From Novosphingobium sp. EMRT-2 (GTDB lineage Bacteria; Pseudomonadota; Alphaproteobacteria; Sphingomonadales; Sphingomonadaceae), in the NCBI RefSeq assembly GCF_005145025.1, contig NZ_CP039695.1:3209501-3273500 (forward strand): 64,000 bases of DNA, read 5' to 3'. Both the position numbers and the translations under genes were made by a program. The notes beneath the pieces were generated by a model. It was not told the origin of the DNA. It did no database searches and saw only the letters and a program-made list of their open reading frames with translations. Shown here in pieces: positions 11,575 through 31,172 of this stretch (its first letter is position 1; every line of letters begins with the position of its first letter).

Positions 11575-12093
11575 TTATCCGAGGACCAGCGTGAAAGACC
11601 AACAGATCGTCGCGCGGTCCATCTCCTCGCGCTGGCCCGCGCCGCACAGTGGAGGGTGTCCTGTCGCTATTTCCGCAAAAGCGGTTGGCCATTGATCCGC
11701 CGCGACGCGGCTCATCGCCGCGGCCATCTTCCCTGGCTGACCGCACGCGCTTGCGACCGGCTGATAGCCTGGATGGCGCAGGGCCAACTGCGCACGATAG
11801 CCGTGTTCGCGCATGATCCCGTTCGCGAGCAAGTGATCCGCATGGCGCGAGACGCCCCATAGCGAGCCCGGTTTGCCGGCCAGAATCCTCCGGAGCAGTC
11901 TGACCCGGTCCTGCTCGAGCGCGATCGCTTCCAGGCCCAGTTCGCGCGCGCGCCTGGCAAACTGGCTGCCGGCGGCAAGCGTCGGGTCGTAAAGCGCGAT
12001 CCTGGCGGCCGGCGCCGCGTGGACGCGGGTGGCGGCCAGAAGCGGGACCGAGGCCGCAGCCGCGATGAAGGTGCGCCGGCTAAGGTCGGTCAT
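11575..12093 (-). CDS. Tat-exported protein of unknown function
   Basis: A 172-residue protein. The N-terminus MTDLSRRTFIAAAASVPLLA contains the twin-arginine motif SRRTF, followed by a hydrophobic stretch and cleavage near VHA, so folded export to the periplasm is predicted. The mature part contains no motif I recognise. Its ATG overlaps the stop of the cytochrome c gene by 4 bp (ATGA), and it is the last gene of a translationally coupled trio with the flavoprotein and cytochrome. A periplasmic accessory or assembly role for the flavocytochrome is an inference from position only. Confidence 0.7.
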   Translation of the reverse strand: MTDLSRRTFIAAAASVPLLAATRVHAAPAARIALYDPTLAAGSQFARRARELGLEAIALEQDRVRLLRRILAGKPGSLWGVSRHADHLLANGIMREHGYRAQLALRHPGYQPVASACGQPGKMAAAMSRVAADQWPTAFAEIATGHPPLCGAGQREEMDRATICWSFTLVLG

Positions 12094-12515
12094 CGCGCAC
12101 CCCGTGCCTTTGGAGCGGTAAGGTAGGCCGCGATCTGCTTGATATCCGCGTCGCTGACTTCGCCTCGGGGGATGGGGGGCATGTTGCCGATGCCCGTCCG
12201 CGCCGCCTGGATCACGTAGTCGACCGTCAGGTCGTTCCGCTCTTCCAGCAACGGGTGATCGGTGCGGCGCGCAAGTAGGCCGGTGCCCATCCCGCCCTTG
12301 CCATGGCACATCCCGCAGTATTGCACATAGAGTCGCTCACCGCCTTTCGCGTTTGGCCGGGCGGAAAGCGTCAGTGGAGAAGGCGGGGATGGCGGCGAGG
12401 GCGGGCCTGCCGCCGGAGCTGGCTTGCCCTGATCTGCCGGCTGTGCGGAGGCGGCGGAAAGCGCGGCCAGCACAATCATAATGCTGCCGCAAAGTCCGAT
12501 CGCAAGGCTGTTCAT
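12090..12515 (-). CDS. Class I c-type cytochrome, electron acceptor for the adjacent flavoprotein
   Basis: A 141-residue protein with a signal peptide (residues 1-24), a Pro-rich linker (PPSPPSPPSP, residues 38-47) and one haem site C67-x-x-C70-H71 (CGMCH). Met112 in GNMPPIPR is the likely sixth ligand. Its start overlaps the flavoprotein stop (ATGA). In 4-cresol dehydrogenase and eugenol hydroxylase a small cytochrome c subunit takes electrons from the vanillyl-alcohol-oxidase-type flavoprotein; the same gene pairing suggests a periplasmic flavocytochrome here. The partner order (flavoprotein then cytochrome) is seen; the electron transfer role is inferred. Confidence 0.87.
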   Translation of the reverse strand: MNSLAIGLCGSIMIVLAALSAASAQPADQGKPAPAAGPPSPPSPPSPLTLSARPNAKGGERLYVQYCGMCHGKGGMGTGLLARRTDHPLLEERNDLTVDYVIQAARTGIGNMPPIPRGEVSDADIKQIAAYLTAPKARGAR

Positions 12516-14068
12516 GCGCGGTCCTTCGTCTTGCTGGAAACGGTGCCGATTCCACTTTTACCCGGTGCGATAATGCCGAAGGGGTCCAGAGCGGCCTTGA
12601 CCTTGGCGTTCAGCTTGCCGAGCGCGCCGCCGTTGAAATCATAGGTCGATGCGACAAGGTCCATGTAGTCGAGGTGCGTGCGGTATTCCCCGTAACCATG
12701 CGCCTTCGCGTCCGCCACCAGCGTGCGGATGAAAGGATCGACGCGGCGCATCATGTCCGGATCGTCCTTGTCCAGCAGGATGGCGTTGACGTTGATCAGG
12801 TGGCGTTCGCCGAACGCGAAGCTGGCCTGATAATCCATGCCGAATTCCTGGTAGCGCTGGTAGGTCCTGCGGAATTGCTCCATCGCCGCGCTGCCCGATT
12901 GCGGCAGTACCGGCGAGAAGCCGATATGCCCGCCCAGGCCTCCGTGCCAGTTCGCGTTCTGCATGGGGAAGGTCAGCGGCGTCCCGGTCCAGCCGGTCAT
13001 TTCCAGCGGTTCGCCACGTTTCCAACTCGTGCGCTTCATGCTGAGCGGCTTGAGCTTGTTCATCTCGCTTTCGAGGATGGCATAGGCTTCGCGGTTGATC
13101 GTCTCGCGTCCGTAGAGGCGCAGGCTGACGCCCCACCAGCCCATCTGGAATTTCTTGCGGATCGCGGCGATCACCGTGTCGGAGAGCGCGCCTTTCTGGT
13201 CCGTCCATTCCGCCCGCGTGGTCAGGATGGCGGCGGCCCGCAACCAGTTGCCGATCGTGGGTGATTGCTGCAGCACACCCTCCCGCCGGAGCGGCGCGAT
13301 GGCATCGATCAGCGGCCCCAGATCTTCCGGCCGGTCGAATTCGAGGTCCATGCCCATGAGCGATTCGGGTTCCGGCATGAGCCACAGGCCGGCCTTGGTG
13401 ACGATGCCCAGGTTGGACTGCACGAACATCTGATCCCACGCCGGACCGAAACCGAAGCGATAGAGCTGCCAGGTGGGCGAGCCGGTGAGCGCGCCCATGC
13501 CGGTGCGCACCAGCGTGCCGTCGGCAAGCACCACTTCCATCCCGCACAGCTTGGTCGTGTGTTCGCCATAGGGCGTGTAGCCGACCCCGCGATCCAGCGC
13601 GTTGCCGATGACTGAGCCCCAGCTGTTTCCGGGCGTCGAAAGCCAGTGCTTGAGCCCGCGCGCCTTCAGGAAATCATACAGATCGTAGAAGCCGACACCC
13701 GGCTCCAGCAGCACGGTGCCGTTCTCCTCGTCGTATTCGATCTTCTTCATGCGGGACAGGTCGAGGATCACCGAACCTTCCAGCACCGGTGCGGAGCCGC
13801 CGTAGCCGAGGTTCTTGCCCCGGCTGATCGGCCAGAGCGGAATCCTGTGCTCGGCCGCGACGCGGACGATCGCCTGGATCTGCTCCACAGTGTCCGGGGC
13901 GATCGCGCCTGCGGGGCGGTGCCGGCTGTCATCGACCGCGAACGCGTCGGAATAGGAATCCTGATCTTCGGCATCGAAGAACAGGTTTTGCGCGCCGACG
14001 ATGGCGGCGAAGCTGCGGCGCGCGGCGGCCAGTCGTTCCGGGGGAATGCTGTAGGACGAAAGTGGCAT
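12512..14068 (-). CDS. FAD-dependent oxidase/hydroxylase of the vanillyl-alcohol oxidase/4-cresol dehydrogenase family
   Basis: A 518-residue flavoprotein. The N-terminal PCMH-type FAD domain shows PLWPISRGKNLGYGGSAP (FAD pyrophosphate loop) and the segment STPGNSWGSVIGNALDRGVG; the C-terminal half matches the cap domain of 4-cresol dehydrogenase and eugenol hydroxylase. Such enzymes oxidise para-alkyl or allyl phenols via a quinone methide hydrated by water. No export signal is apparent, so export would need the partner or another route. The ATG at 14068 begins the family-typical region; in-frame starts up to 14119 exist but none has a convincing ribosome site. It is first in a three-gene coupled set with cytochrome c and a Tat protein. 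Confidence 0.87.
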   Translation of the reverse strand: MPLSSYSIPPERLAAARRSFAAIVGAQNLFFDAEDQDSYSDAFAVDDSRHRPAGAIAPDTVEQIQAIVRVAAEHRIPLWPISRGKNLGYGGSAPVLEGSVILDLSRMKKIEYDEENGTVLLEPGVGFYDLYDFLKARGLKHWLSTPGNSWGSVIGNALDRGVGYTPYGEHTTKLCGMEVVLADGTLVRTGMGALTGSPTWQLYRFGFGPAWDQMFVQSNLGIVTKAGLWLMPEPESLMGMDLEFDRPEDLGPLIDAIAPLRREGVLQQSPTIGNWLRAAAILTTRAEWTDQKGALSDTVIAAIRKKFQMGWWGVSLRLYGRETINREAYAILESEMNKLKPLSMKRTSWKRGEPLEMTGWTGTPLTFPMQNANWHGGLGGHIGFSPVLPQSGSAAMEQFRRTYQRYQEFGMDYQASFAFGERHLINVNAILLDKDDPDMMRRVDPFIRTLVADAKAHGYGEYRTHLDYMDLVASTYDFNGGALGKLNAKVKAALDPFGIIAPGKSGIGTVSSKTKDRA

Positions 14069-14233
14069 GGTTTGATCCGGTCTTTGCTCCGCTTTCCGAC
14101 GCATGGGCCGGGCGCCCATCCTTCATGGCGACGTGGTCGGGAAGAAGAGGGAAAGGTTCTGGCGGTTGTCTCTTTATGCTTTGCCTCGGGATAATGCTGC
14201 GCCAGGATTTGCGCAGCATCGCTAGCTTTGTCG

Positions 14234-14743
14234 CTACGTCGCGAGCCGGCGCTGATTGGGATCGAGCTTGAGCATCTCGGCGCTTTTCAATGCAGGATCC
14301 CAGTGCTCCACAATCTTGCCGTCCTCGATGCGGAAAAGATCGAACCAGCTGGTGTGGTAAGGAGCGTCGTCGGCATCCCGTTCCGGACGGACGAACGTGA
14401 ACTGGACCATGTCGCGTTCGGCCACGATCGCGATCAGCGGCAGACGGATCGCCGGCTCGATCTCGCGCTCCGGCCGGGACGAACGGATGAAGGCCGCGAG
14501 CGCGTCGCGGCCGCTGACGACGTTGGGATTATGCTGGATATAGTCCGGCCCGATAAAATCGCTGACGCGGTCCGCGCGGCCAGCCTGCAGCACGATGCGG
14601 TACATGTCATAGCACAGCCGCTTGTTGCGCTCGATATCGGGATCGGTGCTGCGCAGCATCGCTTCGTGGTCCGCCGCGATGACCGGCGTGGTCAGCCCCG
14701 CGACCGGCTCTGCCGCCGCGATCAGTTCCGTCCTGCCGCTCAA
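14234..14743 (-). CDS. SnoaL-like NTF2-fold protein
   Basis: A 169-residue cone-fold protein with the QHNPNVVSGRDAL and VEHWDPALK motifs of SnoaL-like cyclase/aldolase-type proteins. The central His and Asp of such motifs often form the active pocket. It is a clear paralogue of the product of the gene at 19933-20499, sharing most of the stretch from NK.L.YDMYR to the C-terminal DPN, but it lacks that protein's obvious signal peptide. I prefer a TTG start at 14743: it has GAGGAG ten bases upstream and overlaps the previous stop as TTGA. ATG starts at 14776 and 14794 are alternatives. Enzymatic role unknown. Confidence 0.75.
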   Translation of the reverse strand: MSGRTELIAAAEPVAGLTTPVIAADHEAMLRSTDPDIERNKRLCYDMYRIVLQAGRADRVSDFIGPDYIQHNPNVVSGRDALAAFIRSSRPEREIEPAIRLPLIAIVAERDMVQFTFVRPERDADDAPYHTSWFDLFRIEDGKIVEHWDPALKSAEMLKLDPNQRRLAT

Positions 14744-15156
14744 GATGGCTGCTCCTCGTTCCAGGGGCGCGGCCATTTGCGGGTATCGTCCCAATGTTCG
14801 ACGATAAGACCGTCCTCCAGACGGAACATGTCGAAGGCGTGGCCCAGATAGGTTTCGCCGGGGCGCGTCGGGTCGGGCTGCTCCTGCTCCCAGATGGCGA
14901 CCACGTAGTCGCCCTGCGCCACCGTCCGCAGCAGTTCCTTGCGCGCCGGCGGCGTGAACCCTTCCGGCAGATTCCGGATGATCTTGACCAGATGCAGAAT
15001 GTGCTCGCGGCCGGACGGCATGTTCACATTGTGCTGGATGTAGTCCGGGTGGATATATTTGAAGACGGCCTCGTCCTGGCCTTCATAGATCACGCCCTTC
15101 CACATCGCGATCACGATTTCGGCGTTGCGCTCTTCCAGCGTGCGTTGGTCGGTCAT
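14740..15156 (-). CDS. SnoaL-like NTF2-fold protein
   Basis: A 138-residue small protein with YIQHNVNMPSGREH and LIVEHWDDTRKW, the same two pocket motifs as its neighbours. The N-terminal helix region (EERNAEIVIAMWKGVIYEG) fits the NTF2-like fold. It starts 7 bp after the DUF3237 gene and its stop overlaps the next NTF2 gene, so the three are coupled. The composition predicts a soluble cytoplasmic protein. The family includes polyketide cyclases, dehydratases and isomerases; the reaction here is not known. Confidence 0.82.
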   Translation of the reverse strand: MTDQRTLEERNAEIVIAMWKGVIYEGQDEAVFKYIHPDYIQHNVNMPSGREHILHLVKIIRNLPEGFTPPARKELLRTVAQGDYVVAIWEQEQPDPTRPGETYLGHAFDMFRLEDGLIVEHWDDTRKWPRPWNEEQPS

Positions 15157-15691: not shown

Positions 15692-15847
15692 GAACCTTTC
15701 CTCCGGTCGGAACGGCGGGGCCGGCAGTCGCGATGCCTGCGCGGAATGTCGGTTTTGCATTTCCGAGCCGGTATTTACCCGGGCAAGGTGACGGGAAAAC
15801 CATGGGCAGCGCGCTCCTCTCTCCAATTGCTCGTGCAAAAGCAATCG

Positions 15848-15859
15848 TAACGATCGTTA
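15848..15859. promoter_or_regulatory. Operator 1: TAACGATCGTTA palindrome
   Basis: A perfect 12-bp palindrome within ATCGTAACGATCGTTAT, in the 352-bp divergent gap between the DUF3237 operon (start 15691) and the MarR gene (start 16044). Identical or one-base-different copies lie in the three other divergent gaps of the catabolic region. The rest of this gap shows no convincing gene. Confidence 0.8.
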
Positions 15860-16043
15860 TATATACTTGCAAGCGTGCATGTGGCGGCCCCGGACCGATA
15901 GTGTCCGTCGGTCAGGGCCGGGAATGCGCGCGACCGATAGCGCTCCGCCCTCTGGCTGCGGTATTCCTTGCATTGCGCCGTCGCGGCATTCCCTTCCATC
16001 ATGGGTCTTGACGAAGGCAGGCGCAGCGCCACAGTGAGGCGCT

Positions 16044-16583
16044 ATGTCAAATACATCCGATCCGTCTGAGCCGTCACAGGCGTTACAATCCGACTTGAGC
16101 CCCGAAGCGGAAATGCTGCACAGCATACTCAAGCTCGCGAACCGCCTGATGGCCCCGTTTTCGACGTTCCTTGCCCACGAGCATCGGATCAGCCTGAACG
16201 AGTTCCGGGTGCTGATGCAGATCGGCTTCTACCGATCCGCCGCGAGCCACGAGCTTGTCGAACTGACGGGCGTCAATCCCATGAGCATCTCGCGGGCTGT
16301 CGCCACGCTCGAAAAGAACGGTCGCGTCGTCACGGTGACCGATCCGGCGAATCGGCGGCGCAAGCGGCTGACCCTGACGGCGGAAGGGGAGCGGCTGTTC
16401 CGAGCGATGCGCCCCGCGACGAACCTTGTCGCGGAGTTCTTGCTGTCCCGGTTGAAACCCCATGAGCGCGCGACGCTCGACCATATTCTTCACACGCTGA
16501 TCGCCACGCTGGAGGCGAAGGACGAGCAGGGCCGGTCCCTGTTTCTGGAGCATACCCGTCCGGGCCATCAGCCCGAGGCGTAA
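16044..16583 (+). CDS. MarR-family transcriptional regulator, probable controller of the catabolic regulon
   Basis: A 179-residue winged-helix protein. The recognition region reads ASHELVELTGVNPMSISRAVATLEKNG, followed by the wing DPANRRRKRLTLTAEGERLF, both diagnostic for MarR. The N-terminal ~25 residues are a polar extension. MarR dimers typically bind 12-20-bp palindromes and are released by small aromatic ligands. It is the only transcription regulator between 11.6 and 31.2 kb, and a palindrome shared by all four divergent promoters lies in its own upstream region, so self- and cluster-wide control is inferred. Confidence 0.87.
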   Translation: MSNTSDPSEPSQALQSDLSPEAEMLHSILKLANRLMAPFSTFLAHEHRISLNEFRVLMQIGFYRSAASHELVELTGVNPMSISRAVATLEKNGRVVTVTDPANRRRKRLTLTAEGERLFRAMRPATNLVAEFLLSRLKPHERATLDHILHTLIATLEAKDEQGRSLFLEHTRPGHQPEA

Positions 16584-16690: not shown

Positions 16691-17119
16691 TTAACCCATG
16701 CCGCGACCGCTGGCCGTGGTTGCGGGAACGGGCTGCGCCACGTCCCAGTGCTCGACGATGAGCCCGTCGGCGAATCGGAAAATGTTCATCAGCGCGTGCC
16801 CGGGATCTTCCGGCCCCTGACGGCCAATCAGATGGACGAAACCATAATCGCCATCCACCAGGATGCGGCGGACGTCCATGCTGACCGTCGGCCGTGCGAG
16901 CAGCCCTTCCAGGTGCGCGATCGCGGCTTCCCGGCCATCGGTGACGGCCGGGTTGTGCTGCATATAGTCAGGATGAACGTAACGTTCGAAGGCTTCGCGC
17001 ACCTTCATTTCATCGTAGTAAAGCCGTACGAAATCCAGAAGGAGTGCGCGATTCCGCGCGGTGCGGGCGGCGTACTCCGGGCTTTGGGATTCAGTAATTC
17101 CGGCGGTTCTCGGCGGCAT
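16691..17119 (-). CDS. SnoaL-like NTF2-fold protein
   Basis: A 142-residue protein with YMQHNPAVTDGREAA and LIVEHWDVAQ, the SnoaL-like motif pair. An AGGGAGAG ribosome site precedes the ATG. It is a single gene on the minus strand, diverging from the TonB receptor gene across operator 2. It resembles the products at 14740-15156 and 14234-14743, suggesting duplications within one regulon. The catalytic role is unknown; a cofactor-free lyase, cyclase or isomerase step is possible by family. Confidence 0.82.
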   Translation of the reverse strand: MPPRTAGITESQSPEYAARTARNRALLLDFVRLYYDEMKVREAFERYVHPDYMQHNPAVTDGREAAIAHLEGLLARPTVSMDVRRILVDGDYGFVHLIGRQGPEDPGHALMNIFRFADGLIVEHWDVAQPVPATTASGRGMG

Positions 17120-17213
17120 GGTGTGTTCTCTCCCTAGAGTTCCGGTGCGCGGCGTGATTAACGCGTGCCGTTCATGCGATCAGAAATCTGGCATGTGCTC
17201 GATTGACCAATCG

Positions 17214-17225
17214 TAACGATCGTTA
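17214..17225. promoter_or_regulatory. Operator 2: TAACGATCGTTA palindrome
   Basis: A second perfect copy, again inside ATCGTAACGATCGTTAT, 94 bp upstream of the NTF2 gene start at 17119 and 271 bp upstream of the TonB receptor start at 17497. The remaining ~370-bp divergent gap shows no gene I can support. Confidence 0.8.
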
Positions 17226-17496
17226 TATCAATCTCGAACTGGCTTCAAACCACTTTCAAAGTGGAGGGCAAGGAGAGGGTGTGATGAGAGCGACACAGGT
17301 TCCTATCGGGCGCTTTTCTGAACGGTGCCGTTCGTTTCGCGCAAAATGCAGGGCGGCCGATGGCCGCGTGTCGCGTGATTTCGCAGGCACCGGGGTCGCC
17401 TGACGGCCAGCGCGTTTCGGATTGACCGGGGCTTGCGGCCGCACCGCCGCCAGCCATCCGGGGCAACAATCATCATGAGATACATGGGGAGGTAAC

Positions 17497-19860
17497 ATGA
17501 AAATTGAACTTTTGCGTGCGTGTGCCAGTGTCATGGTCATCGCCGCTGCTATTTCTGTTTCAAGTCAGGCATTTGCCGCAGCGGACGAAGCTTCTTCGCC
17601 GCAGGCTGACGAAGCAGAAGCAACGTCCGGCGACATCGTCGTCACCGCCCAGCGGCGCACGGAGCGCCTGCGGGACGTGCCGATTTCCGTCTCCGTGGTG
17701 GGTGGCGAGCAGCTGGCGCGGGATAACCTGACCAACCTGTCCGCGGTCGCCGATCGTCTGGCCAACGTCCGGATCACGCCCGGGCCGTTCGACCAGCTCA
17801 ACATTCGCGGTATCGGTTCGTCCAACAATACCGGCTTCGAACAATCGGTCGCAACCTTCGTCGACGGCGTTTACCGTTCGCGTCCGCGCGCCATTCGCGC
17901 CGCGCTGTTCGATGTCGAGCGGGTGGAAGTGCTCAAGGGGCCGCAGACGACCTTCTTCGGCAACAACGCGATCGCCGGCGCGCTCAACATCACGACCCGC
18001 AAGCCCGGAGACGAATTCGCCGCCAACGGATCGGCGCTGTACGGAAGCTATGGCGAATACAATGTCGAAGGCGGCGTGACGGTGCCGGTGGGCGACATGT
18101 TCAGCGTGCGTGCTGCCGGCCGCCTGTCCGGCATGGACGGTTATGTGAAGAACGCCTTCACGCGCAAAGACGCTCCGCACGAACGCAACCGTGTCGGCCG
18201 CATTTCGCTGGCCTTCACGCCTTCGTCCAACTTCCGGTCGGACTTGCGCTACGACACCGGCAAGACGACTTCGGACGATTTCCTGCCGTTCGAGCTGGAA
18301 AGCTGCCCGCCGCCCGCGCCGTTCCCCGTGGGCGGAAGCTGCGCGAACTACATCGCGGCGAACGGAACGGCCGTCGACGACAAGCTCAACTGGCGGAACT
18401 CCAGCCGTCCCGGCAAGCTTGACTACGCGTTCAACGAAGTGGGCTGGACCAACGCGTTGAGCATGGGTGACTACACGCTCACGTCGATCACCGGCTTCTT
18501 CAACCACAATACGGAATATCTGCAGCAGCTTATTCCGTCGCCCGTGCCCGGCATCGGTGGCGGCAGCCTGCTTCCGGTGTTCCAGCGCGAAACGTTCCGC
18601 CAGTGGTCGCAGGAAATCCGCCTTGCATCGCCGACGGGTGGCTTCTTCGAGTGGCAGCTCGGCGGCTACTATTCGAGCAGCAAGATGCGCAACAACGGCG
18701 TGACCGGCTTCTTCTTCGCGCCCTTCGGCGCTTCGGCTCCGCCATATACCGCGCAGACGCCGGTTGCCGGGCGCCTGACGGTGCATGAAGACGCGACCAC
18801 CAAGTCGGTGTTCGGCGCCGCCACGATCCGGCCGATCGATCGGGTCAAGCTGAACCTCGGCCTGCGCTATTCCGTGGTGGAGAAGGACGGCTTCCGCTTC
18901 CTGCGCAACGGCACGGCAGACCCGAACTATCCGACCCCGGAAAACTTCGTGCCGGCGAGCCAGCAGGTCAGCGATACGCTGAACACGATCCTGGGTTCGA
19001 ACAACCAGAACTTCGCCAACCCGCACCGCAAGGATGACAAGCTCATGCCGTCGGTGAGCTTGCAGTTCGAAGCGACGCCGGATGTCACCGCTTATGCAAG
19101 CTATACCAAGGGCTTCAAGGCCGGTGGCTATAGCGGCGGTTCGGCCGGTGGCGATTTCGGCCCGGAAACGGTCAACGCCTACGAAGTCGGTATCAAGGGC
19201 AATCTGTTCGATCGCCGCGTTACCTTCTCGCTGAGCGCGTTCCGGGGCGATTATTCCGGCTTGCAGGAATCGGTTTCGGAAACGCTGCCCAGCGGCACCG
19301 TGCGCGTCAGCGTCGCCAATGCCGCGTCCGCCCGCTCGCAGGGTGTCGAGCTTTCGGCCAGCTGGCGCATGACGAGCTGGCTGACCGCGAGCACCGATCT
19401 TGCCTATCTGGATGCGATCTACCGCAACTATAACGGTGCGCCGTGTTCGTCGATCCAGACGCTGCTGGGCGCCTCTTCGGGCTGTATTGGCCGGCGGCAG
19501 GACCTTTCGGGCAAGCGGCGCGGCTTTGCCCCGGAATGGACCGGCAATTTCCGCCTCGACGCGACGATCCCTGCGGGCGACATGAACGTGCGGGTATCGC
19601 CGCTGCTCTACTTCAGCTCGTGGTACTTCCAGTCGTCGACGGCTGACGATCTGATCCGGCAGAAGGGTTATGCGAAAGTCGACCTGCGCGTCAGCGTCGG
19701 ACCGAAAGACGATCGCTGGGGCCTGGCGGTTATCGGCCAGAACCTGACCAACAAGGCCACGGCCGGCTTCCGGCAGACGGTCAGCGGTGCCAACGGATCG
19801 GTTTCGGCCCTGGCTGAACGTCCTCGCACGGTCGCGGTTCAGCTCACCGCGCGATACTGA
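17497..19860 (+). CDS. TonB-dependent outer-membrane receptor
   Basis: A 787-residue receptor. The signal peptide (about residues 1-27, ending AFA) is followed by the TonB-box-like SGDIVVTAQRR, a plug domain (DVPISVSVVGGEQL, LNIRGIGSSNNTGFEQSV, VEVLKGPQTTFFGNNAIAG) and a C-terminal 22-strand-type barrel ending in LTARY. This is the sphingomonad FyuA-like class often found in aromatic clusters, where such receptors import phenolic dimers. GGGGAGG precedes the ATG. It is followed by a secreted NTF2 protein and an aldehyde dehydrogenase on the same strand. The substrate is inferred to be the regulon's inducer compound. Confidence 0.93.
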   Translation: MKIELLRACASVMVIAAAISVSSQAFAAADEASSPQADEAEATSGDIVVTAQRRTERLRDVPISVSVVGGEQLARDNLTNLSAVADRLANVRITPGPFDQLNIRGIGSSNNTGFEQSVATFVDGVYRSRPRAIRAALFDVERVEVLKGPQTTFFGNNAIAGALNITTRKPGDEFAANGSALYGSYGEYNVEGGVTVPVGDMFSVRAAGRLSGMDGYVKNAFTRKDAPHERNRVGRISLAFTPSSNFRSDLRYDTGKTTSDDFLPFELESCPPPAPFPVGGSCANYIAANGTAVDDKLNWRNSSRPGKLDYAFNEVGWTNALSMGDYTLTSITGFFNHNTEYLQQLIPSPVPGIGGGSLLPVFQRETFRQWSQEIRLASPTGGFFEWQLGGYYSSSKMRNNGVTGFFFAPFGASAPPYTAQTPVAGRLTVHEDATTKSVFGAATIRPIDRVKLNLGLRYSVVEKDGFRFLRNGTADPNYPTPENFVPASQQVSDTLNTILGSNNQNFANPHRKDDKLMPSVSLQFEATPDVTAYASYTKGFKAGGYSGGSAGGDFGPETVNAYEVGIKGNLFDRRVTFSLSAFRGDYSGLQESVSETLPSGTVRVSVANAASARSQGVELSASWRMTSWLTASTDLAYLDAIYRNYNGAPCSSIQTLLGASSGCIGRRQDLSGKRRGFAPEWTGNFRLDATIPAGDMNVRVSPLLYFSSWYFQSSTADDLIRQKGYAKVDLRVSVGPKDDRWGLAVIGQNLTNKATAGFRQTVSGANGSVSALAERPRTVAVQLTARY

Positions 19861-23631: not shown

Positions 23632-23681
23632 CGATGTGCTGCAACGAGATTGTCGCTCAAGCGACCAGCAGGAGAGTTCGG

Positions 23682-24320: not shown

Positions 24321-25195
24321 GCGCGGTGCCTTTCGACCACGAGCGGGCGGCGCTCTATGCTGTCATGGACCAGTTCATGGAGGCGATCGTCGCGCGCGAT
24401 CCGGGCCGGCTGCGCTGGGCCGACGACGTGCGCTCCACCGAAAACAACGTCGCCCTGATGATCGGCGACGGGCTGTGGGGCACGGCCACGGGGCGGGGGG
24501 ACTACGACTTGCGGTTCGCCGACGTCCGTACCGGGCAGGTCGGCTTGTTCACGACCGTGATAGAAACGGTCGAGGAGTCGGCCGTCACCTTCCGGCTGGG
24601 GGTGGACCCGTCCGGCGCGATCCGCGAGGTGGAAGTGCTGGTCGTGCGCGACAGCGACGAAGCGCTGAAGTTTCCGAACCCCCGGTTCGAGCGCAAGCCC
24701 GTCATGGAAGCCTTTGTCCCGGAAGCGGAACGGATGAGCCGCGAGCGGTTGCTGACCATCGCCGATGGCTATTTCAACACGCTGGAACAGAACGACGGGC
24801 AGATTTTCACGCGCTTTCATCCCGATTGCAACCGCGTGGAAAACGGTGTGCAGACCACCAACAATCCCGATTTCATCCTGCCGATAGCCGGGCTGCCCTG
24901 CGAGGAGCAATTCAAGCTCGGCTGGTACCGCTATGATGATCGCCTGCGCGGGCGGCGCTATCCGCTGATCGATGAGGAGCGCGGGCTGGTGATGGCCTAT
25001 GGCTTTATCGACCATTGCGGCCGGCTGGCGGAATACACGCTGACCAATGGGGAGCATGTCTCGTCGCTGATCCGGCGGCCGCACACGTTCTATCTCGCCG
25101 AACTGTTCAAGATCGAGGACGGCGCGCTGCGCCAGATCGAGGCGAACTTCATCACGGTTCCCTATCACATGCCATCGCCCTGGGATCGACCGTGA
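24314..25195 (+). CDS. Uncharacterised protein, possibly two NTF2-like halves
   Basis: A 293-residue protein that I do not assign to a named family with certainty. The first ~130 residues (DHERAALYAVMDQFMEAIVA, DPGRLRWADDVRSTENNV, GLWGTA, TTVIETVEESAVTFRLGVD) and the second half (RLLTIADGYFNTLEQNDG, FHPDCNRVENGVQTTNN, LIDEERGLVMAYGFIDHCG) each read like a cone-fold unit, so an internal duplication is likely. It may be related to the DUF8021 group known from fungal gene clusters. Start and stop overlap both neighbours (ATGGTGA; GTGA), placing it in a tightly coupled operon with the NTF2 protein and the dehydrogenase. Confidence 0.75.
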   Translation: MVSAVPFDHERAALYAVMDQFMEAIVARDPGRLRWADDVRSTENNVALMIGDGLWGTATGRGDYDLRFADVRTGQVGLFTTVIETVEESAVTFRLGVDPSGAIREVEVLVVRDSDEALKFPNPRFERKPVMEAFVPEAERMSRERLLTIADGYFNTLEQNDGQIFTRFHPDCNRVENGVQTTNNPDFILPIAGLPCEEQFKLGWYRYDDRLRGRRYPLIDEERGLVMAYGFIDHCGRLAEYTLTNGEHVSSLIRRPHTFYLAELFKIEDGALRQIEANFITVPYHMPSPWDRP

Positions 25196-25986
25196 GCGCA
25201 CGGCTGGCGAACACTGTCGCCTTCGTGACCGGGGGCGGACGCGGGCTGGGTGCCGGCATCGCCACCGCGCTGGCGGAGGCGGGCGCGGCGGTGGCCGTGG
25301 CGGCGCGCACCATGGCGCAGGTCGAGGAGACGGTCGCGTCCATCGGCGCTGCCGGGGGACGGGCCTTGGCGGTGCGCTGCGACGTCACCGATCGCGAGAG
25401 CGTGGCCGCGGCCTATGCCGAAGCGAAGGCCGCTTTCGGCGCACCAACCCTACTGGTCAACAATGCCGGCGTGCAGGGGCCGCTTGGCCCCGCCGGGTTG
25501 GTCGATACGCAGGCCTGGTGGGATACGCAGACCGTTCACGTGCTCGGCGCGCTGTTGTGCATCTCGGCCGCCTTGCCTGACATGATCGCGAACGGGGGCG
25601 GGCGGATACTGAACATCGCTTCGCAGGCCGGCACGTTCGTAGCGCCGTTCGCTTCGGCCTATGCCGTGGCGAAGGCGAGCCTGATCCGCCTGACCGAGCA
25701 TATCGATGTCGAGCAGAAGGATGCTGGCGTCCGGGCGTTCGCGATCCAGCCGGGCACGATCATGACGGCGATGGCGGAAGAAACGCTGCGCTCCGAGCAG
25801 GCGCGCGCCTTCGCGAAGCCGCTGGTCTCGCTGCTGGAAGCGACGACCGAAGAGGAAAGCGCGGAAGGCATGGCGCGGCTGTGCCTGTTCGCCGTGGCAT
25901 TGGCCGCCGGCGAACACGATGCGCTGGCGGGGCGCTACGTGGATATCGAAAGGGATATCCCCGGCAACGTTACGGGGAACGGATGA
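25192..25986 (+). CDS. Short-chain dehydrogenase/reductase
   Basis: A 264-residue classical SDR. The cofactor motif TGGGRGLGAG lies near residue 15, NNAG in LLVNNAGVQG, and the catalytic Ser, Tyr and Lys in NIASQAGTFVAPFASAYAVAK. The PGTIMTAMAEE segment follows. The GTG start overlaps the preceding stop (GTGA), and its own stop overlaps the transporter start (ATGA). It probably oxidises an alcohol or reduces a ketone of the pathway in the cytoplasm using NAD(P); the substrate is unknown. Confidence 0.9.
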   Translation: MSARLANTVAFVTGGGRGLGAGIATALAEAGAAVAVAARTMAQVEETVASIGAAGGRALAVRCDVTDRESVAAAYAEAKAAFGAPTLLVNNAGVQGPLGPAGLVDTQAWWDTQTVHVLGALLCISAALPDMIANGGGRILNIASQAGTFVAPFASAYAVAKASLIRLTEHIDVEQKDAGVRAFAIQPGTIMTAMAEETLRSEQARAFAKPLVSLLEATTEEESAEGMARLCLFAVALAAGEHDALAGRYVDIERDIPGNVTGNG

Positions 25987-27233
25987 TCGTGAAATCGGAA
26001 ACACCTTCCGCCGGGGCGCGGGCATTCCTGCCGCTGCTGCTGTGCGCGCTCGTCATGTGCATCGATGGCTATGACCTCTATGCCCTGCCGCTGGTTGTGC
26101 CGCATTTGTCGGCCCAACTGGGCGTGCCGCCGCAGTCGTTCGGCGTAGCGCTGTCGGCGGTGTTGCTCGGGCTGGGGCTGGGCGCCGTGCTGATCGCGCC
26201 AATCGGCGATCGCGTGGGGCGCAGGCCTGTCATTCTTACCGCGTCCGCCCTGATGGCGTTCACATCGCTGGGTACGGCGGCCGGGGGGACGGTTACGGGA
26301 TTCGCGCTCTGGCGTCTGGCGACGGGATTGTCGCTGGGGGCATGCCTTCCCAACGTCACGGCGCTCGTGGCCGAACTGGCGCCGCCGGGCAAAAGCGCGC
26401 GGACGCTGACCGTCGTTTCGATGGGCATTTCGGCCGGCGGCATCGTGGCGGGATTGCTTGCCCCGCCGCTCATCGCCGCCGGGGGATGGCAGGCGCTGTT
26501 CATGGCCGGCGGCGCGGCGACACTCGTCCTGCTGGGCGTGCTGGCCTGGCAACTGCCGGAATCGCCCACGTTCAGAAACCGTGCGCAGCAACCGCGTGAG
26601 AAGAAGAACTCCATCGCGTTCGTTCAGCTGCTGAGCCCACCGCTGCTCTTTTCGACGGTCCTGTTCGCCGGTCTTTATGCGGTGAATGCGCTGGTGCTGT
26701 ATTACGTGACGAGCTGGGTGCCCACGATCCTGCCGCTTGCGGGATTCAGCATGGATACCGCATCGCGCTTCCTTTCCCTGATCCAGTTCGGCGGCCTGAC
26801 GATCGGGTTGGGGCTTTCCCTGCTGCTCGATCGCGGCTGGGCGGTTCCGGCGATCGTCGGGACCTACTCGAGCGCGGTCGTGGCGCTGCTGCTGCTGGGC
26901 GTGGTCGCGCCCGGGCTGTGGAGCTGGGGCGTCCTGCTGCTTGTCGCGGGAGGTGGCATCTCGGCCGCGCACCTTGTCGTCATGGCGGTGGCGGTCGGCT
27001 TCTTTCCGCCGCACTTGCGCTCCTCCGCTATCGGCATCGCGGTTGCCGTCGCGCGGCTTGGCGCGATCGGCGGGCCGATGCTGGGAGGCCTTGTTATCGG
27101 AGCTGGTGCAAGCACGTCGCTGTTTTTCGTGCTGGCCGTGGCGCCGGCCTGCCTGTGCATCGTCGGGGCACTGCTGATCTCCCGCGCCCTGCGCATCGCG
27201 AAAGCGATGACCGAAGCGGACGCCTTCGCTTAG
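25983..27233 (+). CDS. MFS transporter, aromatic acid:H+ symporter (AAHS) type
   Basis: A 416-residue, 12-helix inner-membrane protein. It has the first-loop motif GDRVGRRPVI, the AAHS-type DGYDLYALPLVVP in helix 1 (the conserved Asp of aromatic acid carriers) and WRLATGLSLGACLPN in helix 4. Related carriers import 4-hydroxybenzoate, vanillate or protocatechuate. Its ATG overlaps the SDR stop by 4 bp, so it is the last gene of the operon controlled from operator 3. A strong bidirectional terminator follows. The expected role is proton-driven import of an aromatic monomer or intermediate. Confidence 0.9.
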   Translation: MIVKSETPSAGARAFLPLLLCALVMCIDGYDLYALPLVVPHLSAQLGVPPQSFGVALSAVLLGLGLGAVLIAPIGDRVGRRPVILTASALMAFTSLGTAAGGTVTGFALWRLATGLSLGACLPNVTALVAELAPPGKSARTLTVVSMGISAGGIVAGLLAPPLIAAGGWQALFMAGGAATLVLLGVLAWQLPESPTFRNRAQQPREKKNSIAFVQLLSPPLLFSTVLFAGLYAVNALVLYYVTSWVPTILPLAGFSMDTASRFLSLIQFGGLTIGLGLSLLLDRGWAVPAIVGTYSSAVVALLLLGVVAPGLWSWGVLLLVAGGGISAAHLVVMAVAVGFFPPHLRSSAIGIAVAVARLGAIGGPMLGGLVIGAGASTSLFFVLAVAPACLCIVGALLISRALRIAKAMTEADAFA

Positions 27234-27344: not shown

Positions 27345-28823
27345 TCAGGCTGCCTGCGCGTGGGCCTGTGCCTCAGCGAGCCGCTCACTCGAAACCCAGG
27401 CGCCGTGGACCTGCGCGCGCAAGGGAACAGGAACCGTTACCCGAGCGACCGGTCCGGCTGCGATGTTGCCCCCGTCCACAATCCAAAGCTCGGATGTGAA
27501 GCGATTGGGTTCGACCTGGCGATCGACCACCGCAAGCAGCCAGCCTTCGTGATCGGCCTGTGACGAGGGGACGTGCACCGGCTCGCTGATGGCCATGCCG
27601 AACTCCAGCGGCATCATGTCCAGCCGGCCGTTGCCGGGCTCCACGCGAAGCATCGCGTTGAAGGCGGCGCCGACCGGGCCGCCGGGGAGCGGTGGTCCAC
27701 CTTGCGGATTGATGGTGAGGTACCAGGCCGAGCGATAGGCGCGGCCCTGGTCGGCATCGCGCAGCCGGGGCATATCGCCCGGCGGGCCGATAAGGCGCGA
27801 TTCGAAGCCTTCCCCCTCGCTGGCGAGATCGAAGGTCCAGCGGGTTAAGCCGCCACCCAGCTCGTTCTGTGCGCGGTGGACGCCTCCCGCCTCGCGCATG
27901 AAGGCGAAGGCGTTGGTGTCGGACAGACAGATGTCGAGGTGGACCTTGTCGCCATCGTCATAGGCATTCACGAAATGGAACGCGGAAACGCCCTTCGGTC
28001 CCTTGAACCAGCGCATTTCCTCGACCTTGCCATAGCGCGGCATGATGCCGACCCAGCTTTCCAGATCCTGCTGGTGCGCCCAGTGCGGGCCGCCGGCCTT
28101 CACGCGTTCGAGGTCCGTCGTGGTCGGAAAGATCGGGAAGACGGCGTATTTCTCGGTGATCGTGAAGTCATGGATCGTCGAGCAGTAGGGTTGCTGGAAC
28201 CACTGCTCAGACACCAGGTTGCCGTCCTTGTCCGCGATGCAATAGGCCACGTCCGCCGTGCACAGGCCGCCGGCCTCGTAGCCGAAGAAGAACATCTCGC
28301 CCGTTTCGGCATCGACGCGGGGATGCGCCGTGAAGGTCTTGGATTTTAGCGCGCCATGGTAATCCCAGCGCCCGATCGTTGCGAGCGTTTCGGGATCGAT
28401 TTCGTAGGCAAGGCCGTCCTCCTTGGTCATGAATAGCCGGCCGGCATGCCAGACGGGGGTGGTATTCGATACCGTGCCGTCGATTCCCTGGGCCTCCGCA
28501 TCATCGGTAAACGGGTTGCGATATTTGCCGAACACGGCCCGCCCCGCTGCCTTTTCGGCCTTGTAGCGCGCGGTTTCGACGTAGCGGATCGCGAAATTGA
28601 CCTTGCCGTCGCGGATGCCGAATTTCGAGACCATCCCGTCGCCCGAAAGAACGATCTCGTCCTCGAACTTCGGCGGATAGGCCGGATCGGGCACGGCGCG
28701 GAAAAACGCCCCGTCGATTTCCCGCGGGATATCGCCGACCACGTCCAGATCGTGCGCCGACCATTCCAGGCGGACGGGGGCGTTCAGGCCAGTGAAGTGA
28801 ATGGTTTCGGGGAAATTCGCCAT
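27345..28823 (-). CDS. Carotenoid-cleavage-type dioxygenase, lignostilbene/isoeugenol oxygenase-like
   Basis: A 492-residue seven-bladed propeller enzyme with the four Fe(II) ligands His167 (TAHPRVD), His218 (TIHDFT), His283 (FHFVNAYDDGD) and His473 (VHGAWV). Tyr101 (GKYRNPF) and Lys134 (FMTKEDG) match, in number and context, the residues that bind the 4-hydroxyl of the phenolic ring in NOV1/LsdA-type stilbene dioxygenases (from memory of that family); the third such residue, Phe59, is Leu59 here. It should cleave a C=C bond next to a 4-hydroxyphenyl ring to give two aldehydes in the cytoplasm. AGAGGA precedes the ATG, 33 bp after the GMC gene. Confidence 0.9.
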   Translation of the reverse strand: MANFPETIHFTGLNAPVRLEWSAHDLDVVGDIPREIDGAFFRAVPDPAYPPKFEDEIVLSGDGMVSKFGIRDGKVNFAIRYVETARYKAEKAAGRAVFGKYRNPFTDDAEAQGIDGTVSNTTPVWHAGRLFMTKEDGLAYEIDPETLATIGRWDYHGALKSKTFTAHPRVDAETGEMFFFGYEAGGLCTADVAYCIADKDGNLVSEQWFQQPYCSTIHDFTITEKYAVFPIFPTTTDLERVKAGGPHWAHQQDLESWVGIMPRYGKVEEMRWFKGPKGVSAFHFVNAYDDGDKVHLDICLSDTNAFAFMREAGGVHRAQNELGGGLTRWTFDLASEGEGFESRLIGPPGDMPRLRDADQGRAYRSAWYLTINPQGGPPLPGGPVGAAFNAMLRVEPGNGRLDMMPLEFGMAISEPVHVPSSQADHEGWLLAVVDRQVEPNRFTSELWIVDGGNIAAGPVARVTVPVPLRAQVHGAWVSSERLAEAQAHAQAA

Positions 28824-28856: not shown

Positions 28857-30464
28857 TCAGGTGTTGCGCCGCAGGGTCTTGAGGACGTGGTCGGCGCCCT
28901 TGTCGCCCACCATGATGGCAGTGGCGTTGGTGTTTCCGGCGGGCAGGGACGGAAATATCGACGCGTCCGCGACCCAAAGCCCGTTAACGCCGATCACTTG
29001 CAGGTCGGGGTCCACCACGGCCATCGGGTCCGTGGCGGCGCCGATCTTGGCGGTCCCCACCGGATGGAACATCGGGATGGCCGCGGCCCTGACATAGCTG
29101 CGCAACTCGTCCCGGCCGGTCAGAGCCGGGCCAGGCCGCAGCTCCTCGGTGATGAACGGCGCGATCGGGGTTTGCGCCAGGATGTTCCGTGCCATCGCGA
29201 TACCTTCGACGATCTGGTCGACGTCGTCGTCGGTCGAAAGCTGCTGATGATGGATCACCGGCGGGGCCATGGGATCGGTGGACTTCAGCGTGATCCGGCC
29301 GCGATAGCTGGGGCGCATCAGCCCGACCAGGGTCGAGACCGAGGCGTTTTTTCGCAGCATCAGCCTGCCCTGGTCGTCGAAGTCGAACGCGAAGGCGGCG
29401 AAGGAAAGCTGAAGATTGGGGGCAGGCAGGTCCGGGCGGCTCTTCACGAACGCCTGGGCGTGGCCGATGGACGTGCTCAGCGCGCCCTGCCGCGATAGCG
29501 CGTATCGGAATACCGACAATGCGCCGCGAAGCCCCTGCGCATCATCGTTCAGGGTATGTGCGTTCACCGCATTGACGATATGCGTGCCCACATGATCCTG
29601 CAGGTTGCGCCCCACGCCTTCGCGATGGCAGACCACGGGCACGCCGACGTCGGCAAGATGGTCCGCCGGGCCGACGCCGGACAGCATCAGCAACCGTGGC
29701 GTGTTCATCGCGCCTGCACTCACGACGACGCCGTGCCGGGCGAGCAGGGTCTTCTCCGTCCCGTCCTGAAGATAGGCGATGCCAACGGCTCGCCCGTGCT
29801 CGATCAGGATGCGAAGCACCTGCGCGCCCAGCAATGTGCGCGGCGGGGTCGATCCCTTGAAGTCGTGGAGATAGCCGCGCGCCGACGAACAGCGCGTGCC
29901 GTCCCGTTGCGAGACTTGCACGTAGTCGACACCTTCGGCCTTTTCGCCGTTCAGGTCGCGCCGTTCGATGCCGGTCTGCTCTGCGGCGGCGATCCACGCA
30001 TCGGTAATGGGATAGCGCGCGCGCCCTTCGGAGACGGAAATGGGGCCACCGGTCCCGCGCCAGGCATCCGCGCCGCGCTCGTTGTCCTCCATCCGCCGGA
30101 AGTAGGGCAGGACGGACTCGTAGTCCCAGCCGGCGGCGCCCAGCGCGCGCCAGTTATCGTAGTCCCACCGGTGGCCGCGGATGAACATCATCCCGTTCAA
30201 TGCGCTGCCGCCGCCCAGCAGCTTGCCCGCCGGCCAGATGTCCGCGCGGCCGCCCAGGGATTCGTCGGGTTCGACCTGGTAGCACCAGTCGAAAGCCGGG
30301 TTCTGGACAATCGAGCTGGTCAGGGCCGGGATACGGGAGCGAAAATGTTGATCGGACACACCCGCTTCCACGAGCGTTACATTCAACCCGGCCGATGCAA
30401 GGCGGCCGGTCATTGCCGCGCCGGCCGATCCGCCGCCAATCACGATTATATCGGTTTCGCTCAC
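28857..30464 (-). CDS. GMC-family FAD-dependent alcohol oxidoreductase
   Basis: A 535-residue protein with the N-terminal FAD motif IIVIGGGSAGAAMTGRLA, GMC signature 1 near PAGKLLGGGSALNGMM, and signature 2 around SAGAMNTPRLLMLSGVG. The catalytic His lies in FHPVGTAKIG and the partner Asn in AGNTNATAIMVG. GMC enzymes PhcC/PhcD oxidise the gamma-alcohol of phenylcoumaran lignin dimers in Sphingobium, which makes this a plausible side-chain alcohol oxidase beside a stilbene dioxygenase. I chose the GTG at 30464 because it directly precedes the FAD motif; ATGs at 30542 and 30572 are possible but add an atypical N-terminus. It probably forms an operon with the dioxygenase. Confidence 0.88.
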   Translation of the reverse strand: MSETDIIVIGGGSAGAAMTGRLASAGLNVTLVEAGVSDQHFRSRIPALTSSIVQNPAFDWCYQVEPDESLGGRADIWPAGKLLGGGSALNGMMFIRGHRWDYDNWRALGAAGWDYESVLPYFRRMEDNERGADAWRGTGGPISVSEGRARYPITDAWIAAAEQTGIERRDLNGEKAEGVDYVQVSQRDGTRCSSARGYLHDFKGSTPPRTLLGAQVLRILIEHGRAVGIAYLQDGTEKTLLARHGVVVSAGAMNTPRLLMLSGVGPADHLADVGVPVVCHREGVGRNLQDHVGTHIVNAVNAHTLNDDAQGLRGALSVFRYALSRQGALSTSIGHAQAFVKSRPDLPAPNLQLSFAAFAFDFDDQGRLMLRKNASVSTLVGLMRPSYRGRITLKSTDPMAPPVIHHQQLSTDDDVDQIVEGIAMARNILAQTPIAPFITEELRPGPALTGRDELRSYVRAAAIPMFHPVGTAKIGAATDPMAVVDPDLQVIGVNGLWVADASIFPSLPAGNTNATAIMVGDKGADHVLKTLRRNT

Positions 30465-30634
30465 GCGCTGCGTCTTTCTGTATCGGTTTGCTGGAATTTC
30501 TCGATTAGAGGCGTAGCGCGTAGCAACTTTTTCACGCCACATACGGCTGCTTTCGCCGACGATGCCGTGCATCCCGTGCGGCTTCGCACCTTGGAACTCC
30601 TTTGCGATTTCAGGCTACCTCTTGCATTTAAAAA

Positions 30635-30646
30635 TAACGATCGTTA
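30635..30646. promoter_or_regulatory. Operator 4: TAACGATCGTTA palindrome
   Basis: A perfect copy in the gap between the GMC gene (start 30464) and the NTF2 gene at 30678, where it sits only 31 bp before the ATG. It is the last copy and marks the right end of the inferred regulon. Confidence 0.8.
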
Positions 30647-30677
30647 CGGTTGTGTCAACAGAATGGAGAGGAATACG

Positions 30678-31172
30678 ATGGCTCTTTCGGTTGAGGATCG
30701 CTTTGCGCTGGAGGATCTGCTGGCTGCCTATGCCTGGGCGCTCGATACCGGGGACGTGGAAGGCCTGGTTGCCTGCTTCACGCCCGACGCCCGCATGGTC
30801 GAAGAGGTTTTCGAGGAGCCCGACATCTGGGAAGGCCATGACGGCATTCGCGGAATCGCCGAGCACTACCGCAACGCCGAAGGCTTTCCCGGCCGCCAGC
30901 ACCATGTGTCGCAAGTGCAGTACATGCCGCAGGAAGACGGCACGGTGAAAATGCGATCGTTCGCGTTCGTGACCGAGTGCGCCGGCGATACGCCGTTCGA
31001 CCTGCGCTTTGCCGGCTATTACGAGGATCACGCGATGAAGGGCGAAGACGGCCGCTGGCGTTTGCACCGCCGCGTGGCCCGGTTGTGGGACGGCGAAATC
31101 CTCAAGAATTTCCCGGGCCGTGGGCAGTGGACGCCACGCAAGCGTCCCGCTTCGCTGATTATCAAGCGGTAA
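30678..31172 (+). CDS. SnoaL_4-type NTF2-fold protein
   Basis: A 164-residue protein: RFALEDLLAAYAWALDTGDVEGLVACFTPDARMVEE is the typical N-terminal helix pair and first strand of the NTF2-like fold, followed by the GHDGIRGIAEHY motif and FPGRQHHVSQVQY. The pair of His in the central strand often lies in the active pocket. GGAGAGG lies upstream of the ATG at 30678. It diverges from the GMC-dioxygenase operon across operator 4. It resembles the 23682 protein more than the QHN/EHWD group and is a second candidate for a deformylating lyase or isomerase. Confidence 0.82.
   Translation: MALSVEDRFALEDLLAAYAWALDTGDVEGLVACFTPDARMVEEVFEEPDIWEGHDGIRGIAEHYRNAEGFPGRQHHVSQVQYMPQEDGTVKMRSFAFVTECAGDTPFDLRFAGYYEDHAMKGEDGRWRLHRRVARLWDGEILKNFPGRGQWTPRKRPASLIIKR

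Follow-up and report, generated by a model that had tools for sequence, protein, structure and literature searches.

A candidate regulon for a beta-beta linked phenolic dimer in Novosphingobium sp. EMRT-2, related to the pinoresinol pathway

We analysed a stretch of 64,000 nucleotides from Novosphingobium sp. EMRT-2 (contig NZ_CP039695.1; C1:3209501-3273500 of the genome that we call G000, 4.77 Mb in 5 contigs), referred to below as the window. Between positions 11575 and 31172 it carries 19 genes that appear to be a divergent sister set of those for the pinoresinol (pin) pathway of N. rhizosphaerae LY, lacking the first enzyme of that pathway, the reductase PinZ. We think it probable that these genes form a catabolic regulon, controlled by a MarR-family protein, for a phenolic dimer with a beta-beta (8-8') linkage.

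An initial annotation of the sequence had proposed one regulon of an undescribed pathway for a phenolic dimer or phenylpropanoid, by comparison with routes for beta-1 and beta-5 lignin dimers, and had regarded a flavocytochrome as an addition to those routes. A catabolic regulon for a phenolic dimer is retained here, but the beta-1 and beta-5 comparison and the view of the flavocytochrome as extra are not. The pathway can still be called undescribed, in that the literature we found assigns the cluster no substrate. That literature concerns sphingomonad lignan catabolism and the locus tags of strain SYK-6, which carries the same cluster, and comprises the available portions of main texts in journals open without subscription; within it, SYK-6 tags from the cluster are printed only in PMC8191317 and PMC12997858.

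Counterparts of the pinoresinol enzymes

The route for (+)-pinoresinol, a beta-beta lignan, was published in 2025 for strain LY and consists of PinZ (reductase), PinY (GMC oxidoreductase), PinX (DUF3237), PinW and PinV (flavoprotein and cytochrome) and PinU (lignostilbene-type dioxygenase, LSD) (PMC12607616). Apart from PinZ, every one of these enzymes is matched by a protein of the window. The GMC, DUF3237, flavocytochrome and LSD proteins thus correspond to the set PinY-PinX-PinWV-PinU, of which the flavocytochrome is a regular member. Pfam and NCBIfam scans recovered all of the protein classes named in the initial annotation. Seven of the 19 genes are NTF2-like.

The gene content of LY was taken from an LY-like genome (G052), which served as a proxy, given that its gene order agrees with the LY locus tags and that its PinZ and GMC identities are near the printed ones. 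Its 18 genes run PinV, PinW, one other gene, PinX, a pyrroloquinoline quinone (PQQ) dehydrogenase, a tandem NTF2 protein, three others, an aldehyde dehydrogenase, one other, a TonB receptor, a MarR regulator, LdpA, two others, PinZ and PinU, an order consistent with the LY tags printed from pinV to pinU (00370-00455, at intervals of five). G052 PinZ is 79.0% and 74.4% identical to the PinZ proteins of strains F199 and SYK-6 (79.3% and 73.7% are printed for NrPinZ), and its GMC protein shares 40.3% identity with the presumed PhcC (for PinY, the printed value is 39%). Assignments of the SYK-6 phc and ldp genes, NOV1, NOV2, LdpA, PcfL, the F199 pin genes and several SYK-6 tags rely on position, neighbours and counting.

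In addition to the GMC, DUF3237, flavoprotein, cytochrome c, LSD and aldehyde dehydrogenase classes, the window and the LY pathway share a tandem NTF2 protein, an LdpA-family NTF2 protein, a MarR regulator, a TonB receptor and palindromic operators of related form. They differ in that the window copy has neither PinZ nor a PQQ dehydrogenase, and has the extra protein E. Also, the window GMC gene lies inside the cluster, whereas that of LY lies elsewhere by its tag; the pathway proteins are 42-68% identical, and the operator is TAACGATCGTTA rather than TAACAATTGTTA.

Among individual enzymes, the window DUF3237 protein is 69% identical to the F199 PinX homologue and 68% to G052 PinX, and it is the only DUF3237 protein of G000 above 43%. 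The GMC protein is 50.9% identical to the presumed PinY of G052, which is encoded at a separate place, and 86% identical to a SYK-6 protein whose tag, by place, is SLG_27980; this tag is listed as the SYK-6 pinY homologue, and SLG_27970 is paired with pinU (PMC12997858, Table 1). Identities are lower for the flavoprotein (43% to the F199 PinW homologue, 44% to G052 PinW) and the cytochrome c (37% and 42.5% to the corresponding PinV proteins). Among the matches listed, G000 has no PinW-type (42-45%) flavoprotein. In trees, the flavoproteins and the reductases each separate into a canonical (type-1) clade and a clade of the window's kind (type-2).

The LSD passes the NOV2 equivalog model NF053780 (885.7 bits; cut-off, 650) and is 88% identical to SYK-6 LSD5, 55% to the F199 PinU homologue and 53% to G052 PinU. 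Alignment to SYK-6 LSD4 confirmed the residues predicted initially, namely the four iron-ligand histidines (His167, His218, His283 and His473), Tyr101 and Lys134. Position 59 is Leu (Phe59 in LSD4) and position 282 is Phe; SYK-6 LSD5 has the same two residues, and the PinU-type enzyme of F199 combines Leu with Tyr. In a tree based on 46 of 51 rows (five duplicates were dropped), type-2 enzymes form one clade with PinU, NOV2 and LSD6, apart from LSD1-4, with a support of 100 in the Shimodaira-Hasegawa-like approximate likelihood-ratio test (SH-aLRT). The LSD, flavoprotein and reductase trees come from quick searches with SH-aLRT support only and gave long-branch warnings. A further dioxygenase-family gene of G000 (C1:187500-188900) was matched in a six-frame search as two pieces in different frames, the longer of which has no counterparts of Tyr101 and Lys134.

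The initial annotation had also noted several NTF2-fold proteins and read their excess, together with the flavocytochrome, as a sign of a different substrate or extra steps. Six of the seven genes have a SnoaL-type Pfam match. The seventh, of 293 amino acids, has no Pfam match, and was recognized from an AlphaFold2 model (mean predicted local distance difference test score, 85.9), for which the top Foldseek match is the tandem NTF2 epoxide hydrolase Lsd19. At least three of the seven (the tandem protein, protein D and a small SnoaL_2 protein) have relatives in pin clusters; the tandem protein is 61% identical to a gene product of the F199 pin cluster and 57% to that of G052. Protein D is homologous to the gamma-formaldehyde lyases LdpA (31%) and PcfL (29%) and matches the LdpA structures 8abv and 8abt at 8e-17 and 1.1e-16. 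Protein E is conserved at 66-91% in 18 aligned relatives and corresponds in SYK-6 to SLG_27990, as read from the record. Its model adopts an NTF2 fold. The solved structures closest to this model have unknown or presumed functions, and LdpA ranks 44th and 47th. No counterpart of protein E was found in the pin stretches of F199, G018, G067, G052 and G009.

Aldehyde dehydrogenase 2 is 71% identical to its F199 counterpart, and the cluster's enzyme is 68.5% identical to that of G052. The SYK-6 orthologue of aldehyde dehydrogenase 1 is, by place, counting and tag, bzaA (SLG_27910), which encodes an aldehyde dehydrogenase with a broad range of aromatic substrates (PMC5353671). For the transporter predicted to be an aromatic acid:H+ symporter, TIGR00895 is indeed the top model, although its 201.5 bits lie under the cut-off of 418.55.

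PinZ is absent from the genome as a whole: a search of G000 gave no match above 36% identity and none at 1e-60, the best having an E-value of 1.3e-11 at 30%. At C1:1522000-1538000, G000 aligns to the pin locus of genome G067 in two blocks (87% and 91%), between which G067 has 860 bases, at the place of pinZ, and G000 has 12. The G000 locus retains LdpA (66%) and a NOV2/PinU-type LSD (82%), which are the beta-1 pair of F199 (PMC11323797). Two genes of the cluster were rejected as substitutes for the reductase: the 293-aa gene, from the tandem NTF2 fold of its model, and the short-chain dehydrogenase/reductase (SDR) gene, which belongs to PF00106 rather than to the NAD_binding_10/NmrA families of PinZ.

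The operator and the distribution of the cluster

The proposal of one regulon was borne out by a palindrome, TAACGATCGTTA, common to all four divergent promoters of the cluster. The 16-mer shared by these promoters scores 46 of 48, and shuffled sequences (n = 20) reach 35 at most. With up to two mismatches, a 14-mer form matches seven times in the window, at four places when both strands are counted, compared with 0.07 expected. Exact copies of a 12-mer occur three times in the genome, all within the cluster, and one-mismatch copies occur at eight places, one of which is in the cluster. The regulon looks local because the other seven copies are within genes, or close to genes that have no visible link to the cluster, as judged by eye with no family search run. 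Judging by orientation, these four sites could control the full set of 19 genes, and the presumed binder, given its gene position, is the MarR-family protein encoded at 16113-16583.

Between genes, the palindrome recurs with at most one mismatch in 18 of 21 scanned stretches of related clusters, and each of the other three (G057b, L047 and L065) has a two-mismatch copy. These 21 are part of the stretches fetched; two genomes are counted twice, once under a name and once without, and two stretches come from G057. Among ten stretches with canonical pin or ldp genes, none has TAACGATCGTTA, and eight have TAACAATTGTTA within one mismatch, the exceptions being the pinZ-pinX and ldp stretches of SYK-6. 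Conversely, TAACAATTGTTA is found in none of four type-2 stretches, and at up to one mismatch it is absent from between the genes of the window cluster, where TAACGATCGTTA stands instead. In the canonical pin clusters L147/L148, L084, L085 and L123, TAACAATTGTTA (at most one mismatch) precedes pinW- and pinU-type genes; this palindrome goes unmentioned in the available text of PMC12607616.

Co-inheritance of the enzymes was assessed in 195 Novosphingobium genomes. The same 12 genomes carry the type-2 flavoprotein (at least 76%), LSD (at least 72%), GMC protein (at least 69%) and DUF3237 protein (at least 80%), although the LSD of G062 is a fragment and, in G057, GMC and LSD lie on a different contig from the flavoprotein. 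Protein E is found at 73% or more in 11 of the 12, and the twelfth, G067, is cut by a contig end. Outside the 12, there is one GMC protein at 66% (G068) and protein E at 69% (G156) and 53% (G090). Protein E belongs to the core of the module, alongside the flavoprotein.

In nine of the 12 module genomes, a PinZ-like reductase (48-51% identical to F199 PinZ) adjoins protein E, and in the fully mapped clusters it is mostly followed by a PQQ dehydrogenase, 54-64% identical to the one beside PinX in F199. Canonical PinZ (at least 63%) occurs in none of these nine genomes versus 60 of the 195 overall (P = 0.034, with relatedness ignored). Named relatives with the cluster include S. jiangsuense, N. 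organovorum, N. profundi, Croceibacterium and Altererythrobacter. In Erythrobacteraceae, four stretches of about 21 kb each (L050, L053, L059 and L065) have a PQQ dehydrogenase and no close GMC protein, and therefore the two may perform the same oxidation.

SYK-6 holds the whole window cluster, including SLG_27910 (bzaA), SLG_27970 (LSD5/lsdF), SLG_27980 and SLG_27990, with operators at slightly different places. Of 18 compared proteins, 17 are 75-93% identical and the protein with a twin-arginine signal is 56% identical; protein F was left out of the comparison with its own counterpart. SYK-6 additionally has a partial pin locus at C1:755000-774900, with PinX (77%), PQQ dehydrogenase (70%), aldehyde dehydrogenase (72%) and PinZ (79%), and neither TAACGATCGTTA nor TAACAATTGTTA is present there at up to one mismatch.

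Type-2 flavoprotein genes were also seen on very large replicons filed as plasmids, in Novosphingobium sp. RL4 and Sphingobium sp. V4; RL4, from rhubarb rhizosphere, has the whole module. A third arrangement (G068, C1:567000-584000) places relatives of window genes (GMC, 66%; MarR, 55%; aldehyde dehydrogenases 1 and 2, 73% each; NTF2, 61%) beside PhcD-like (45%) and PhcG-like (40%) genes.

Proposed pathway and competing explanations

A resinol contains two benzylic ether rings, of which one is opened reductively by PinZ and the other in the decarboxylation step of the DUF3237 enzyme. The clusters of the relatives carry both a reductase and a DUF3237 gene, and therefore furofuran lignans fit better than beta-1 or beta-5 dimers. 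Because the PinZ step is gone in the window genome, its pathway most likely starts from an already reduced aryl-tetrahydrofuran lignan. Once this lignan has been taken up through the TonB receptor, its CH2OH group would be converted into an acid by the GMC oxidase together with an aldehyde dehydrogenase. It is this acid that the DUF3237 enzyme would decarboxylate, opening the furan ring to give an imperanene-like alkene. Oxidation at the benzylic carbon by the flavoprotein and cytochrome c would then yield a quinone methide, from which formaldehyde would be lost, perhaps aided by protein D or E. Finally, the dioxygenase would cut the resulting diarylbutadiene into two aldehydes, to be oxidized by the two aldehyde dehydrogenases. 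In LY, a pink diarylbutadiene accumulates in the pinU mutant. This order of steps is modelled throughout on the counterpart enzymes.

Several observations weigh against this lignan reading. EMRT-2 has no PinZ, and the operator of the window is unlike that of pin clusters. Neither SYK-6 nor F199 grows on pinoresinol, and SYK-6 reduces pinoresinol to lariciresinol with no further conversion seen in vivo (PMC12607616), even though it has PinZ, a PinX 77% identical to that of F199 and the entire cluster. Either the cluster is not induced, or it acts on another lignan or stereoisomer, or the lignan reading is wrong. SYK-6 LSD5 has been shown only to prefer lignostilbene over DCA-S, in lysates, and the available text of PMC8191317 makes no mention of a lignan-derived diene. 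In a careful DUF3237 tree (25 of 28 rows), the clade of PinX and type-2 proteins has a support of 45/51, and approximately unbiased (AU) tests leave groupings of type-2 with PhcG (p-AU 0.25) and of PinX with PhcG (p-AU 0.31) unrejected; PhcF and PhcG are on long branches. Because the tree leaves the branching order open, the case for a PinX-type assignment of the window protein rests on identity. The flavoprotein could have been swapped in, because it is about equally close to vanillyl-alcohol oxidase (VAO)-type enzymes in the PDB (460.7 bits to 8s7t) and to PinW (43%, 453 bits by a different program).

The pathway could instead be for a beta-5 (phenylcoumaran) dimer, for example one whose side chain is saturated, as in dihydrodehydrodiconiferyl alcohol, an explanation that we consider unlikely. 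GMC and DUF3237 enzymes would make a stilbene in the manner of PhcCD and PhcFG, the LSD would cut it, and the flavocytochrome would dehydrogenate the propanol side chain. The enzyme classes agree with the phc route of SYK-6, in which GMC oxidation (PhcC/D) and DUF3237 decarboxylation (PhcF/G) precede an LSD, LSD4 (PMC12997858), and the window GMC protein shares 38.6% and 35.1% identity with the SYK-6 proteins taken as PhcC and PhcD. The open position of PhcG in the DUF3237 tree also allows this explanation, which would account for the failure of SYK-6 to use lariciresinol. However, the described phc route lacks a flavocytochrome and its LSD is in another clade, and both window proteins are much less similar to their phc counterparts than to the pin ones: the DUF3237 protein is only 43.6% and 37.7% identical to the SYK-6 proteins taken as PhcG and PhcF, as compared with 69% to the PinX type of F199. 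Moreover, G000 has separate DUF3237 genes on contig C3 (42-43% identical to that of the window) and another LSD, of the LSD4 clade; the PinZ-like reductase of related clusters has no use in described beta-5 routes, and the preference of LSD5 for lignostilbene over DCA-S points away from them (PMC8191317).

A route for a stilbenoid, a beta-1 dimer or a phenylpropene such as isoeugenol or eugenol seems less probable still. The NOV2 model match of the LSD, the cleavage of lignostilbene by its SYK-6 orthologue (PMC8191317) and the membership of protein D in the LdpA family are consistent with such a route, and the flavoprotein belongs to the eugenol-oxidase/VAO family. Yet protein D is only 29-31% identical to LdpA, of the LdpA/LsdA (NOV2) beta-1 pathway, and PcfL of N. 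aromaticivorans, and G000 already has its own LdpA and NOV2-type locus near C1:1530 kb. Such substrates would also leave no role for the DUF3237 and GMC genes or for the PinZ-like gene seen in relatives, all of them inherited together with the LSD. The initial annotation had listed eugenol and isoeugenol for testing, but neither an isoeugenol route nor a beta-1 or beta-5 route with a flavocytochrome added fits the cluster, which resembles the pinoresinol pathway. PinAB of Pseudomonas SG-MS2, p-cresol methylhydroxylase (PCMH) and eugenol oxidase likewise share a VAO/PCMH-family flavoprotein with the window, and PinAB and PCMH also a cytochrome c partner, but the rest of the PinAB pathway is unlike the window (PMC12997858), and pinoresinol hydroxylation by the window flavoprotein is unsupported. 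Equally improbable is a second pin copy for pinoresinol itself, or a leftover that ceased to work when PinZ was lost. Counterparts are near one-to-one, G000 has a PinZ-sized gap, and in G067 and G074, which have canonical PinZ elsewhere, the sole DUF3237 match at E <= 1e-50 lies in the cluster. On the other side, the reading frames are open and all four operators are present; identities of 42-68% for the individual genes and an operator distinct from that of pin clusters suggest a role of its own, and SYK-6, with PinZ and the cluster, still does not use pinoresinol (PMC12607616).

The beta-beta dimer regulon thus remains our preferred reading. The idea of a different substrate survives in a narrower form, since the window copy has no PinZ and the SYK-6 cluster is not accompanied by lariciresinol consumption. 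More tentatively, we suggest that a second, hitherto unassigned 8-8' lignan pathway may extend over Novosphingobium, Sphingobium and Erythrobacteraceae, and one metagenome-assembled genome labelled Hyphomonas. It would have a MarR operator code of its own, and protein E (the SLG_27990 family) would be dedicated to resolving the quinone methide left by the flavocytochrome. The SYK-6 and window clusters would have lost the reductase and PQQ dehydrogenase, and their substrate would be a tetrahydrofuran lignan distinct from plain lariciresinol, such as a syringyl or epi form or another stereoisomer.

Features of the window and significance

Table 1. Genes and operator sites of the cluster, in positions of the window
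Feature	Position	Strand	Evidence or context
Small protein, twin-arginine-like signal (by eye)	11575..12093	-	Last gene of flavocytochrome operon
Cytochrome c, PinV-like	12090..12515	-	PF13442
VAO/PCMH-type flavoprotein, PinW-like	12512..14068 (alternative start 14119)	-	PF01565
NTF2/SnoaL_2 protein A	14234..14776	-	PF12680; 84% in SYK-6
NTF2/SnoaL_2 protein B	14740..15156	-	PF12680; 93% in SYK-6
DUF3237 decarboxylase candidate, PinX-like by identity	15164..15691	-	PF11578
Operator palindrome 1	15847..15860		Between DUF3237 operon and MarR
MarR-family regulator	16113..16583 (alternative start 16044)	+	PF01047; 57-86% in related clusters
NTF2/SnoaL_2 protein F	16691..17119	-	PF12680
Operator palindrome 2	17213..17226		Between protein F and TonB operon
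TonB-dependent receptor	17533..19860 (alternative start 17497)	+	PF00593, PF07715
NTF2/SnoaL_2 protein C, apparent signal peptide (by eye)	19933..20499	+	PF12680
Aldehyde dehydrogenase 1, BzaA-like	20524..21996	+	PF00171; 89% to SYK-6 gene
Aldehyde dehydrogenase 2, pin-cluster counterpart	22097..23566	-	PF00171; 71% to aldehyde dehydrogenase of F199 pinUZ locus
Operator palindrome 3, one mismatch	23619..23632		Between aldehyde dehydrogenase 2 and protein D operon
NTF2 protein D, LdpA/PcfL family (gamma-formaldehyde lyase family)	23682..24320	+	PF13577
Tandem NTF2-fold protein, 293 aa	24314..25195	+	AlphaFold2 model, Foldseek
SDR	25192..25986	+	PF00106
MFS transporter, aromatic-acid symporter-like	25983..27233	+	PF07690; TIGR00895 below cut-off
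Lignostilbene-type dioxygenase, LSD5/PinU-like (RPE65/LSD)	27345..28823	-	NF053780
GMC oxidoreductase, PinY-like	28857..30572	-	PF00732, PF05199
Operator palindrome 4	30634..30647		Between GMC-LSD operon and protein E
NTF2 protein E (SnoaL_4)	30663..31172	+	PF13577

The small protein at the end of the flavocytochrome operon has no Pfam or NCBIfam match; a SYK-6 gene at the equal place is 56% identical, and a similar gene stands behind PinV in F199. At the edge of the cluster, which is predicted to release formaldehyde, lies a gene of the metal-sensitive repressor family (11197-11475, PF02583), presumably the family of the FrmR formaldehyde sensors. Farther along, at 36046-38428, a gene for a DinB_2 and formylglycine-generating enzyme (FGE)-sulfatase protein overlaps one for a histidine-specific methyltransferase (Methyltransf_33), a pair that we take to be EgtB and EgtD of ergothioneine-type biosynthesis.

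C-C linked dimers are among the harder lignin products to use, according to the pinoresinol papers, which, in their available text, name no separate enzyme for the formaldehyde-losing step; proteins D and E are candidates for it. Our analysis gives a candidate role to a cluster in SYK-6, a bacterium much studied for its use of lignin; among its genes is that of LSD5, which PMC8191317 counts with seven other enzymes as undetermined in role. It also predicts that lignan breakdown in sphingomonads would involve two parallel regulons with two operators.

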